Shown here piece by piece: positions 51,096 to 60,414 of a stretch of 64,000 bases of DNA. Within the stretch, counting starts at the first letter, position 1; each line of letters opens with the position of its first letter. The notes beneath the pieces are model-generated. The model worked only from the letters and a program-made list of their open reading frames with translations, had not been told where the DNA came from and did no database searches. Source of the stretch: Bacillus gaemokensis (lineage in GTDB: Bacteria; Bacillota; Bacilli; Bacillales; Bacillaceae_G); assembly GCF_001590835.1 (NCBI RefSeq), contig NZ_LTAQ01000070.1, positions 31,866-95,865 on the forward strand. Reading direction: 5' to 3'. The translations under genes were made by a program, and so were the position numbers.

Positions 51096-52145
51096 TCAAA
51101 TTAGATCCCATGATATAGGTGTTCCCTTTGTTATATCCTTATTCGCTTTCTTTCCTATAATTTTCGATAAGTGTTTTGGTGATAAACCATTACCAGGTCG
51201 AATCGCTTTAATATTTTCATTCGTGAACATTTCTCCTGCTTTTATGTTTTCTACAACATATAATGACCTTCTAAATTTTAAAGAGTTTTGTTCTAAATCA
51301 GTAGGACCATAATATACATTCCCTAAGGATTCCCATGCTTTTTCAGTTTCACTTACTAGAGATTTAAATTCAGCAGGTTCCATCGAAAATGCAGCATCAA
51401 CCCCCCCGTCAGATCTAGAAAGCGTTAAATGCTTTTCAATTACACTTGCTCCTAAAGCAACACTCGCTACAGCAACTCCTAGTCCAAGTGTATGGTCAGA
51501 TAAGCCTACTTCACATTGAAATAACTCTTTCATATGAGGTATGGTAGTTATATTTGTAAATTTAGGGGAGGCAGGATACGTACTTGTACATTTTAATAGA
51601 ATCAAATCTTTACACCCCTCTTCTCTAGCTACCCTTACTGTTTCATCTAATTCAGCAACTGATGCCATACCTGTTGAAATAATTACTGGTTTCCCCGTTG
51701 CAGCGACTTTACGAATCAGAGGAATATCAGTATTTTCAAAAGATGCAATTTTATAACAAGAAACATTTAAAGACTCTAAAAAATCTACAGACGTTTCGTC
51801 AAATGGTGTACTAAATGGAATCATTCCTAATTCTATACAACGATCAAAAATAGGCTTATGCCACTCCCATGGTGTATATGCTTCTTTATATAAATGATAA
51901 AGCGATTTACCTTCCCATAAGCTTTTCGTATCACGAATTAAAAAATCACCAGTTTCTATATTTAAAGTCATTGTATCAGGTGTATATGTTTGAATTTTAA
52001 ATCCTTGTGCCCCAGCCTCTGCAGCCGCTTCCACAATTTGCAGTGCTCTTTCTAATGATTGATTATGATTCCCTGACATTTCTGCAATAATAAAGGGTGG
52101 AACGTTATTGCCAATCTGTCTACTGCTAATATAAATGTTATTCAT
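51096..52145 (-). CDS. spsE: SpsE/PseI-like nonulosonic acid synthase
   Basis: 349 residues; ATG 52145 (GAAGGTGAAAAAT upstream) preferred to TTG 52160. NeuB-type TIM barrel: FIIAEMSGNHNQSLERALQI, LLKCTSTYPASP, VGLSDHTLGLGVAVASVALG and EKHLTLSRSDGGVDAAFSME, then a C-terminal SAF/antifreeze-like domain (NIKAIRPGNGLSPKHLSKII). The M-S-G-N-H-N and L-S-R-x-D-G-G-V-D pattern is that of pseudaminic acid synthase PseI. It condenses a 6-deoxy diacetamido hexose with phosphoenolpyruvate to give a nine-carbon acid. Last gene of the operon, overlapping spsD by eight bases. Confidence 0.9.
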   Translation of the reverse strand: MNNIYISSRQIGNNVPPFIIAEMSGNHNQSLERALQIVEAAAEAGAQGFKIQTYTPDTMTLNIETGDFLIRDTKSLWEGKSLYHLYKEAYTPWEWHKPIFDRCIELGMIPFSTPFDETSVDFLESLNVSCYKIASFENTDIPLIRKVAATGKPVIISTGMASVAELDETVRVAREEGCKDLILLKCTSTYPASPKFTNITTIPHMKELFQCEVGLSDHTLGLGVAVASVALGASVIEKHLTLSRSDGGVDAAFSMEPAEFKSLVSETEKAWESLGNVYYGPTDLEQNSLKFRRSLYVVENIKAGEMFTNENIKAIRPGNGLSPKHLSKIIGKKANKDITKGTPISWDLI

Positions 52146-52698
52146 ATTTTTCACCTTCAAGTTCTTTTATAATTTTTTCTTTCCTTTCCATCCATTGCTC
52201 ACGAAGCAGAGTCATTGTAATGATGTCAATATATTCATTATCTCTGAAAATATGGTTCAAATATCTTCCTTCTTCTTGAAAACCGAATTTTTTATGAAAA
52301 TTTAAACTAATATGATTCCGGTCTAATATTTCTGCGCATAGTTTTTGTATACCATATGTTTCAAAAATAAAATTTAATGCTACTATACCTAAAACTGTTC
52401 CAGCCCGCTTTACACTTTGTTTGTCCCCTATATAAAAACCCCAATAACAAGTTTGATTTATTTTGTTTATTTTTGTGAAATTAATAAATCCAATTGGTTT
52501 TTCATTATATACCAATAACCTTGCAACCTTTGTGTCGTCATATTTTAGTTTTTCAAACCATCTAAAGTGTTCATATTTTGATATTTTATGATTTTGGTAC
52601 ATAACAGAACGAATTTCTTCTGAATTCCTCCATTTTAAAATAAGATCTAAATCTTTCTTTTCTATACATTTCAGATGAAAATTCTCTATGTTTAACAT
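52138..52698 (-). CDS. spsD: SpsD/PseH-like nucleotide-sugar N-acetyltransferase
   Basis: 186 residues from ATG 52698. GNAT protein with the PseH layout: DLDLILKWRNSEEIRSVMYQ at the N-terminus, FINFTKINKINQTCYWGFYI, acetyl-CoA loop near KRAGTVLGIVALNF, and AEILDRNHISLNFHKKFGFQ. PseH acetylates the 4-amino group of UDP-4-amino-4,6-dideoxy-N-acetyl-hexosamine from acetyl-CoA. Two bases separate it from the spsG stop; it overlaps spsE. Confidence 0.85.
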   Translation of the reverse strand: MLNIENFHLKCIEKKDLDLILKWRNSEEIRSVMYQNHKISKYEHFRWFEKLKYDDTKVARLLVYNEKPIGFINFTKINKINQTCYWGFYIGDKQSVKRAGTVLGIVALNFIFETYGIQKLCAEILDRNHISLNFHKKFGFQEEGRYLNHIFRDNEYIDIITMTLLREQWMERKEKIIKELEGEKYE

Positions 52699-52699
52699 G

Positions 52700-58244: not shown

Positions 58245-59642
58245 TTACATACTTCGAGATAAATCTTGTAATTTTTGAGTAACTGTTGTTTGAGGATAAT
58301 TTTTCTGTATGAAATAATCCCTTAATTGTTTAGCAATTGTGGAATATGAAGAATCATATAAAACTTTTTCAATTGTGTGTATCATATTTTCAATAGAATG
58401 AGTCACAAGCCAACTTAATTCATCGTAATATTTATAATCTCTTTCCTCTGACTTAGATTTATAAACAACTACCGGTGTATCTAATAACATAGCCTCTAAT
58501 CCTACTGTTGAATTAGAGATAACTACAAGATCTGAATTAGAAATGACATCATAAATATTTACTTCAGTTGTAATATACTTGACATTAGGATATACCTTAC
58601 TTAAATGAATATATTCGCTTACTAAATTACGACCTTTTTCCCAAGGATGGGGCTTTATAATAACTGTAATATTTTTGTCTCTCATCAATTGTTTTGTTAA
58701 TTCAACATAAAATGGGGTTTTAAATGGCTGAGTTGCAATAAAGATTATTTTCTTAGAGGGATCTATATTTAGTTTCTTACAAAGTTCTTTTTTTCCTAAA
58801 TGCTTCTTGTCAAAGATATCATCATATCTTGGGTGTCCCATTATCTCGATTTGAGAATCAGCTCCACCTTTTTGAAAATACCACTCTCGTTCATACTCTC
58901 CATATACAATCTGTTTCGTAGCGAAAATTGGAAAAAAAGCTTCTTCTCCCATTATGGCCCCATGCTGAAGACAATAACTTGGAATCCCCTTACTTTTGGA
59001 GATAAGAGTAAGTACTCGGTTCGTTATATCTTCTGTTGTACCAACAATCACACTCGAGATATCATATTTTTCAAAAATAAAATATGCCATATTAATTTTT
59101 TCAATCATGATAGGAAGATCATTGAGTAATTTTGTTTGGAAAAATATATTAGAAAATAGCGGATGTTCTTTAAATGTTGAAAAGATTTTTTGAGCTTTTC
59201 CAATGAAAATATGAGAATTATTAGGAACTTTATTTGTATAATCTAGTGCACAAATCGTAGGAAGACCATAAAGTTCTTTCTTTTTTGCTCTTGTTAATAT
59301 TTTTGTATAATTAGGATTAAAATGAGAAAAATTACCTGCTGAAAAACGAAGATAATCAGTATTAAGCAATACTATTCCATCTGATCCCCCTTTTTTTGCC
59401 GTTTGCTCAAGCAAAGGCAACCATTTTTCAAATTCTGACTGTAATTGCATTTCTTCTATTGGCGCAACTGACAAATATTTATAAAAATCCTTTTTTTTCA
59501 TCTTCTTTTTAACATCTTCTTCTAAATATTGATAAAAATTACTTAATAAAGGTAAAGAAATATTATGATGTACTAACTTAGAAAAAATCTTTATATATTC
59601 TAAATTTAATAGCCAATAATTTTTCAAATAGACTTCACTCAA
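58245..59642 (-). CDS. spsB: SpsB-like GT-B glycosyltransferase
   Basis: 465 residues from TTG 59642 behind AGAGGGTGAAATC. N-terminal half without a known signature; C-terminal half has capsule/poly-glycosyl transferase features: YCLQHGAIMGEEAFFP, the VIIKPHPWEKGRN motif (K-P-H-P) and SNSDLVVISNSTVGLEAMLL. These resemble CDP-glycerol/teichoic-type polymerases, KDO and sialic-acid transferases, and B. subtilis SpsB. It is the natural candidate to transfer the CMP-nonulosonate or to build the polymer. Four bases follow the spsA stop. Confidence 0.75.
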   Translation of the reverse strand: MSEVYLKNYWLLNLEYIKIFSKLVHHNISLPLLSNFYQYLEEDVKKKMKKKDFYKYLSVAPIEEMQLQSEFEKWLPLLEQTAKKGGSDGIVLLNTDYLRFSAGNFSHFNPNYTKILTRAKKKELYGLPTICALDYTNKVPNNSHIFIGKAQKIFSTFKEHPLFSNIFFQTKLLNDLPIMIEKINMAYFIFEKYDISSVIVGTTEDITNRVLTLISKSKGIPSYCLQHGAIMGEEAFFPIFATKQIVYGEYEREWYFQKGGADSQIEIMGHPRYDDIFDKKHLGKKELCKKLNIDPSKKIIFIATQPFKTPFYVELTKQLMRDKNITVIIKPHPWEKGRNLVSEYIHLSKVYPNVKYITTEVNIYDVISNSDLVVISNSTVGLEAMLLDTPVVVYKSKSEERDYKYYDELSWLVTHSIENMIHTIEKVLYDSSYSTIAKQLRDYFIQKNYPQTTVTQKLQDLSRSM

Positions 59643-59646
59643 GATT

Positions 59647-60414
59647 TCACCCTCTTTTTCTTCTTAAGTCTTCTCTTAATTCTTTACATGTTCTTTGTGG
59701 TGGTAATAATTGTACAAATTCATTTTTTTCTTCCGCGAATAACTGTGAATGTATTGAATTTGAAGTAATATAATTTATATCTAAAATCTTATCTATCGGA
59801 TAAAAATCCCAAAAGTGATTCAATCTCCAAAAAAAACGAGCATCTCCTATGCGATAAAATTCTGGGTTTTCATCCCAGTAAGAACCCCATTTTTTTTGAA
59901 CGATTGGCAAAATAGAAGCTCTATGCATGATAGAACAATGATCAATTGTACATGGAGCATTATTTGTAATCTTTTGTGCTGGTCTTTGTACAGTTTTAAT
60001 AGGCTTATCTGCTTCATCAAGATGGATCGTTTGTGATGCGGAATAAATAATTTGAACATCTTTATTCTCATCGAGATAACTAGACATCTTTTTAAGTCGT
60101 TCTCTCTCGTATTGATTATCATCTGTAATATACGTAATATACTCTCCTTTTGCATGCTGAAGTGCTTCATTAATTAAAACTGCATATCTTACTTTTTCTG
60201 TTCGTTCTGAAATATGTTTAATATTACTTCTATAAAAGTGTACATTTCTATTTTTTATAAATGGTTGAATCACTTTCTGAGTAGATTCGTTAGAATTATC
60301 ATCCATAATGAAAAATTCAAAATCTTGGAAATTCTGATTCAATACACTCAGTATCGATTTTGCTACAAACATAGGCTTATTATAACTAGTCATAATAACT
60401 GTGATTTTAGGCAA
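59647..60414 (-). CDS. spsA: SpsA-like family 2 glycosyltransferase
   Basis: 255 residues, TTG 60414 behind AAGGAGGAGAATAATG; a competing ATG four bases upstream opens only MFA. GT-A fold: [35 protein letters not shown], the metal motif [14 protein letters not shown] (D-D) and [29 protein letters not shown]. Length and pattern equal B. subtilis SpsA, a sporulation glycosyltransferase of known structure. First gene of the nine-gene operon. A paralogue lies divergently at 60823. Confidence 0.9.

Follow-up and report, generated by a model that had tools for sequence, protein, structure and literature searches.

The operon for cytidine monophosphate (CMP)-activated pseudaminic acid (Pse) of Bacillus thuringiensis israelensis, with its enzymes Pen and Pal, was reportedly described by Li in 2015. 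According to the available parts of PMC8987622 and PMC5109656, Pen is a uridine diphosphate (UDP)-N-acetylglucosamine (GlcNAc) 5,6-dehydratase and Pal the oxidase/reductase/epimerase that acts next toward CMP-pseudaminic acid. A further described system is the legionaminic acid pathway of B. subtilis, spsABCDEFG with spsM, whose SpsM has M where Pen has Y in the catalytic motif, and in which co-expression of pen and pal restored legionaminic acid to an spsM mutant (PMC7439481, available part). Here we analyse a 64,000-nucleotide stretch of Bacillus gaemokensis (contig NZ_LTAQ01000070.1, positions 31,866 to 95,865; hereafter the window), in which nine minus-strand open reading frames (ORFs) at positions 51096-60414 form an operon of this kind. 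We posit, at a probability of roughly 0.7, that it is a sporulation operon that makes CMP-pseudaminic acid and feeds a spore-surface glycan.

Read from 60414 to 51096, the gene order is spsA, spsB, pen, pal, pseC, SAF-spsF, pseG, pseH and pseI (Table 1). Pen and Pal are 87% and 86% identical to the solved B. thuringiensis proteins (6bwc and 6bwl), and the window shares with the B. thuringiensis israelensis operon the adjacency of pen and pal and a predicted seven-enzyme pathway from UDP-GlcNAc to CMP-Pse (PMC7439481, PMC8987622 and PMC5109656, each as far as available). Whereas the published role of that operon concerns flagellin (the genes around it fall outside the comparison), the window operon begins with spsA-spsB and converges with a cgeA-cgeB-like pair. 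With B. subtilis the window has in common spsA, spsB and the aminotransferase, cytidylyltransferase, hydrolase, acetyltransferase and synthase steps, and CgeA is relevant to both (available part of PMC7439481); unlike the B. subtilis sps genes, it has Pen and Pal in the place of SpsM, Pse-type PseC, PseG, PseH and PseI, and no rhamnose genes after the operon in the window. The type IV flagellin glycosylation island of Geobacillus also holds Pen and Pal orthologues, but these lie apart from each other among flagellar genes, and the available part of PMC5109656 mentions no SpsA there. A sequence-only reading of this DNA had announced a complete operon of nine same-strand genes spanning the full path from UDP-GlcNAc to a CMP-activated nonulosonic acid, and our gene assignments bear out both points. 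Its description of the operon as of sps type holds for the SpsA/SpsB pair at the head, while the biosynthetic core is the Pen/Pal pseudaminic acid pathway.

Pen and Pal are central to the assignment of the sugar, and their rescue of legionaminic acid in the spsM mutant means that the later enzymes decide the product. PseC, PseG, PseH and PseI all exceed their curated NCBIfam equivalog cut-offs, and the synthase, already taken to be of PseI type in the sequence-only reading, also scores higher against the solved PseI 8h2c (294 bits) than against SpsE 1vli (185 bits). Pen scores 310 against the PseB cut-off of 408, similar to other Pen proteins (323 in locus L076, 305 in L001), and its catalytic motif is S-x9-Y-x3-K, not the SpsM-type T-x9-M-x3-K. 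As a control we scanned one of eight legionaminic-type clusters, L114, in which SpsE reached 255 against the PseI cut-off of 340, and SpsC 404.5 (PseC cut-off 423.5); at the SpsG position no NCBIfam family matched at E<=1e-40. A B. subtilis-like role, with legionaminic acid as the sugar supplied to the spore, would agree with the SpsA and SpsB shared by the two operons and with the finding that the product is not set by Pen and Pal alone (PMC7439481, available part); yet the four Pse-type enzymes by curated cut-offs, the failure of the one scanned legionaminic-type cluster to reach those for PseI and PseC, and the tyrosine of Pen in place of the methionine of SpsM make it very improbable. Legionaminic acid as the product was accordingly rejected on the PseI and PseC cut-offs with the L114 control, together with the solved-structure scores. 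The most likely product, judged from these homologies, is CMP-pseudaminic acid, made by the already known Pen/Pal pathway. The sequence-only reading had called both the sugar and its carrier open; the sugar is largely predictable and thus not open, since the core is the pathway characterised in B. thuringiensis, and for the carrier the neighbouring CgeA offers a candidate.

By homology to enzymes studied elsewhere, those for Pen and Pal coming from B. thuringiensis, Pen would act first and Pal would then yield UDP-4-keto-6-deoxy-L-AltNAc, which PseC would aminate and PseH acetylate before PseG takes off UDP; PseI would form Pse5Ac7Ac by adding pyruvate, and SAF-SpsF would activate this sugar with cytidine triphosphate. 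Under sigma K in the mother cell, SpsA and SpsB, perhaps with CgeB and the divergent SpsA2, may next assemble the glycan or attach it, and CgeA would be a candidate acceptor or hub at the spore surface. Transfer by SpsA and SpsB, as proposed in the sequence-only reading, is doubtful: neither is needed for legionaminic acid transfer in B. subtilis (PMC7439481, available part).

The gene context points to the spore. SpsA is clearly related to its B. subtilis namesake (352.8 bits), and further signs lie next to the operon. The sequence-only reading had noted a flanking CgeB-like gene, which is indeed present and is named by its domains and its CgeA partner; the partner itself, a small ORF upstream of it, had not been reported. 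This ORF has no Pfam or NCBIfam match, but a profile of three sequences (window, L076 and L062) finds CgeA 9l9d as its sole PDB match up to E 1 (E 1.6e-15), and an AlphaFold model from the three sequences (mean predicted local distance difference test score 81.9) has the same structure as its sole PDB match under E 0.001 (E 2.2e-5). The conserved C-terminal Sm-like domain of CgeA is present in the window homologue, which lacks anything that corresponds to the initial ~65 residues of the solved chain. Because the small ORF matches the crust protein CgeA by both fold and profile, we regard the genes that converge on the operon as a cgeA-cgeB-like pair. CgeA has been discussed as a possible glycosylation target or hub, and CgeB as one of nine possible crust glycosyltransferases (PMC10502511, available part), and the adjoining CgeA is a concrete candidate carrier of Pse.

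To place this arrangement among its relatives we compared 50 loci (two Priestia plasmids, one Peribacillus plasmid, 13 genome-contig loci and 34 further genome regions), 48 of them with a Pal more than 60% identical. The genome-contig search had found 15 Pal loci, of which two distant ones (L017 and L018; Pal 23-27%) were left out of all counts; neither the Pal tree nor the CgeB count includes L064, which shares a contig with L011. Besides the window, six loci (L015, L062, L068, L076, L082 and L084) have SpsA-SpsB at the head of the Pen-Pal operon. L076 has the same gene order as the window with the same convergent CgeB-CgeA downstream, and in L062 a divergent CgeA-CgeB pair stands upstream of the operon. 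The Peribacillus plasmid (L003/L121) carries PseB, with CgeB upstream and a weak CgeA-like ORF (E 2.4e-4), and is the third PseB case beside L111 and L120. Altogether, a CgeB-like gene adjoins seven of ten SpsA-linked Pse loci (window, L003/L121, L062, L076, L082, L111 and L120), but none of the 8 legionaminic-type clusters and none of the 40 Pal loci that lack SpsA; CgeA-like ORFs occur in four of the ten (window, L062, L076 and, weakly, L121). The Priestia plasmid locus L001 is not among the ten because its SpsA-like gene is of the SpsA2 type, and the legionaminic-type label of L112-L119 follows gene order and similarity, with the NCBIfam scan covering L114. Of the 348 genomes sampled in the order of G186, 29 have Pal and 15 have SpsA. 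Among these 15, five carry Pen and Pal, two (L111 and L120) carry a PseB that passes the curated cut-off, and a legionaminic-type, B. subtilis-like cluster is found in eight (L112-L119), so that in this one-order sample the Pse version is found in 7/15 SpsA-bearing genomes. Two other orders have Pal in 4/39 and 0/5 genomes. Class and order samples contained no near-identical PepF (best 51% in 398 genomes; 0/397 at E<=1e-240), and a search for a B. cereus link by way of a solved structure found no hit. A search with the PseC DNA found no near match in plasmids. SpsA2 has relatives close to the Pse operon in L001 (41%) and in L082 (48%); in L001 the genes ahead of this operon (195-4469) include those for deoxythymidine diphosphate (dTDP)-rhamnose and for an SpsA2-like glycosyltransferase. 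This arrangement is reminiscent of spsI-L of B. subtilis.

An alternative is that Pse serves a vegetative cell-wall or capsule glycan and the spore-gene neighbours are incidental. SpsB has a domain of the CDP-glycerol glycerophosphotransferase type, whose family has known roles in wall and capsule synthesis too, and many Pal loci have SpsB-like genes without SpsA and CgeB. However, CgeA and CgeB recur at SpsA-linked Pse loci without keeping to one side, standing upstream in L062 and downstream in L076 and the window, which suggests a functional linkage and leaves the cell-wall or capsule role quite unlikely.

We looked at the promoters for signs of sporulation control. Using the sigma-K consensus (AC-N16/17-CATANNNTA, at least 7/8 letters, within -75 to -22), we found sites ahead of spsA in 5/7 testable Pse loci (7 letters in the window and L076; 8 in L062, L120 and L015), against a background of 112/1108 ORF starts, and, as a positive control, in 8/8 legionaminic-type clusters, each with 7/8 letters and from related genomes. 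L068, with its 4 upstream bases, is not counted, nor are the two loci in which spsA is not the first gene (L003 and L111); the promoter nulls include the real sites. Upstream of the window cgeA stands a site with 8/8 letters, reached in 3/100 shuffles. The Fisher value of 1.2e-6 for neighbours and the binomial value of 1.9e-4 for promoters overstate independence, because both tests were framed after part of the data had been seen and the loci are related.

Phylogeny agrees in part. In the Pal tree (48 rows) the window groups with the Priestia plasmid and L076 (95/82) and then with L062 and L068 (91/82), and the spore label, with L001 counted as spore, needs 4 changes against a shuffled mean of 7.5 (0/500 as low). 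The PseI tree, built without L002 and without PseI pieces shorter than 280 residues or below 49% identity, likewise clusters the label (6 versus 10 changes; 0/500 for the spore group and 1/500 for the rest).

Several observations weigh against a spore-surface role. L015, L084 and L068 have no CgeB, although L068 ends at its contig end upstream; the window spsA site, reached at 7/8 letters in 31/100 shuffles of the upstream 300 bases, is not significant alone; and no sigma-K-like site was found at spsA of L082 and L084, nor in L003 and L111, where spsA is internal. L001 lacks both an SpsA of at least 50% identity and CgeB, and relabelling it as 'other' weakens the clustering in the Pal tree (5 changes against a shuffled mean of 6.7; 13/500 as low), so we use that tree as supporting evidence only. 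The spore label is also not one clade there, L015, L082 and L084 lying elsewhere, and the PseI tree, its bootstrap not settled, does not fix the position of the window. The 187-bp gap before pseG could terminate transcription within the operon. Finally, the B. thuringiensis israelensis Pen/Pal locus has been read as flagellar (PMC5109656, available part). A supply of CMP-Pse to flagellin O-glycosylation, the role proposed for this homologue, is kept as a rival because of that published reading, and a flagellin probe did find flagellin in the neighbourhood of three Pal loci (L005, L074 and L090). In the 64-kb window, however, two flagellin segments had no match (other flagellar genes were not searched), spsA, spsB, cgeA and cgeB surround the operon, and the Pal proteins of those three loci sit elsewhere in the tree, in a 12-row group of modest support (84/60). 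The flagellar setting, disfavoured by the missing flagellin match and by this tree position, is thus unlikely. We conclude that the spore surface is the most likely destination; gene content, homology, neighbours and trees are what we observed, and from them we infer product, timing and carrier. The link of SpsA, SpsB and CgeB to the spore, on which the sequence-only reading had built the same destination, is supported by gene context.

More broadly, we lean slightly toward a joint reading in which Bacillota spores carry two nonulosonic types, a widespread pseudaminic one, marked by spsA-spsB with pse genes, often a cgeB-like gene, sometimes cgeA, and either Pen and Pal or PseB, being the type to which the B. 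thuringiensis Pen/Pal pathway would belong. No report of pseudaminic acid on spores appears in the titles and abstract openings of the open-access matches listed, nor in the available parts of PMC6208408 and PMC6972965. Should our reading hold, the spore surface, which decides charge, adhesion and recognition, would be where a pathway so far assigned to B. thuringiensis flagella acts. Spores would then have pseudaminic acid as their second nonulosonic acid, in addition to legionaminic acid, and CgeA/CgeB would offer a testable carrier.

The cytidylyltransferase may have a history of its own. Called PseF-like in the sequence-only reading, it fits that name in predicted function, but it has no NCBIfam PseF match and is an SpsF-type protein. 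Its ~66 extra N-terminal residues resemble the SAF domain of the window's own PseI (33% over 52 residues), weakly so in Pfam (E 0.0029, below gathering). Single ORFs fusing NeuB and SpsF occur in L084 (591 aa) and L082 (593 aa), and L120 (10503-13169) has an 888-aa fusion of a NeuB-like part, an SpsF-type cytidylyltransferase and an aldo/keto reductase. Priestia has SAF-SpsF followed by separate genes for an aldo/keto reductase and a short-chain dehydrogenase/reductase (SDR), and the SpsF of L076 (260 aa) lacks the SAF-like part. A first genome search with SAF-SpsF gave no match, nor did a viral scan. We therefore rejected the idea of a new SAF module on the cytidylyltransferase: a remnant of the NeuB-SpsF fusion, whole in L084, L082 and L120, fits better, and the window protein is probably such a fusion in shortened form. 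L120 carries a separate PseI beside its fusion, and such clusters hold a second, divergent NeuB. In L084, a 556-aa ORF (13443-15113) combines a PseG with a PseH domain.

Seven of the eight operon junctions are overlaps (Pen-Pal, Pal-PseC and PseH-PseI) or gaps of 1-65 bp, as the sequence-only reading had stated for the whole operon; the statement fails at the sole long gap, 187 bp between SAF-spsF and pseG. Its 12-pair hairpin plus nested stem folds more stably than 200/200 shuffles (z -3.06), and since the gap carries so strong a hairpin, the operon may be two transcripts. The gap appears to sit where Priestia carries the aldo/keto reductase and SDR genes. Two pattern searches found the element in single copy in the window; it had no match in plasmids, viral contigs contained no match to a 20-base piece, and Rfam gave nothing at gathering level within window positions 46000-64000. 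A mobile repeat is one possibility for this element, a regulatory or attenuating RNA another.

Table 1. Features of the operon and its surroundings in the window.
Feature	Position	Strand	Basis
CgeA homologue, 81 aa, TTG start after AAAGGAG	49718..49963	+	matches C-terminal domain of B. subtilis CgeA
CgeB-like glycosyltransferase (Glyco_trans_1_2 + DUF3880)	49995..50972	+	domains and CgeA partner
Inverted repeat where cgeB and pseI converge, probably a bidirectional terminator	51022..51053	.	by eye; not in hairpin scan
PseI, pseudaminic acid synthase (NeuB + SAF)	51096..52160	-	TIGR03586 505.6 bits, cut-off 340
PseH, N-acetyltransferase	52138..52698	-	TIGR03585 141.6 bits, cut-off 93
PseG, UDP-sugar hydrolase	52700..53806	-	TIGR03590 317.8 bits, cut-off 153.6
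Intergenic element with hairpin	53807..53993	-	hairpin scan, fold statistic
SpsF-type cytidylyltransferase, N-terminal SAF-like domain; predicted CMP-Pse synthase	53994..54968	-	CTP_transf_3
PseC, aminotransferase	54996..56198	-	TIGR03588 503.8 bits, cut-off 423.5
Pal, 4-oxidase/5,6-reductase/5-epimerase ('extra SDR' of the sequence-only reading)	56195..57157	-	276/320 residues identical to 6bwl
Pen, UDP-GlcNAc 5,6-dehydratase	57154..58179	-	294/338 residues identical to 6bwc; S-D-K...Y-x3-K motif
SpsB-like TagB-type transferase, CDP-glycerol glycerophosphotransferase type	58245..59642	-	domain match
SpsA-like GT2 glycosyltransferase	59647..60414	-	352.8 bits to B. subtilis SpsA 1h7l, residues 2-252
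Sigma-K-like promoter site AC-N17-TATATAATA, 7/8 letters	60457..60484	-	consensus match, weak alone
Second GT2 (SpsA2), divergent from operon	60778..62106	+	domain match

The name SpsB follows position and 36-39% identity to the gene after spsA in L112-L119. Elsewhere in the window, a C1q-like ORF 7 kb from the operon (43651-44085, minus strand) has a weak match to the BclA C-terminus, below gathering, and is perhaps of exosporium type. A SecY homologue (37516-38895, plus strand) is possibly an extra SecY, because it stands apart from the ribosomal protein genes recognised in the ORF list, and a small ORF at 17440-17988 (plus strand) resembles by eye a LAGLIDADG homing endonuclease.

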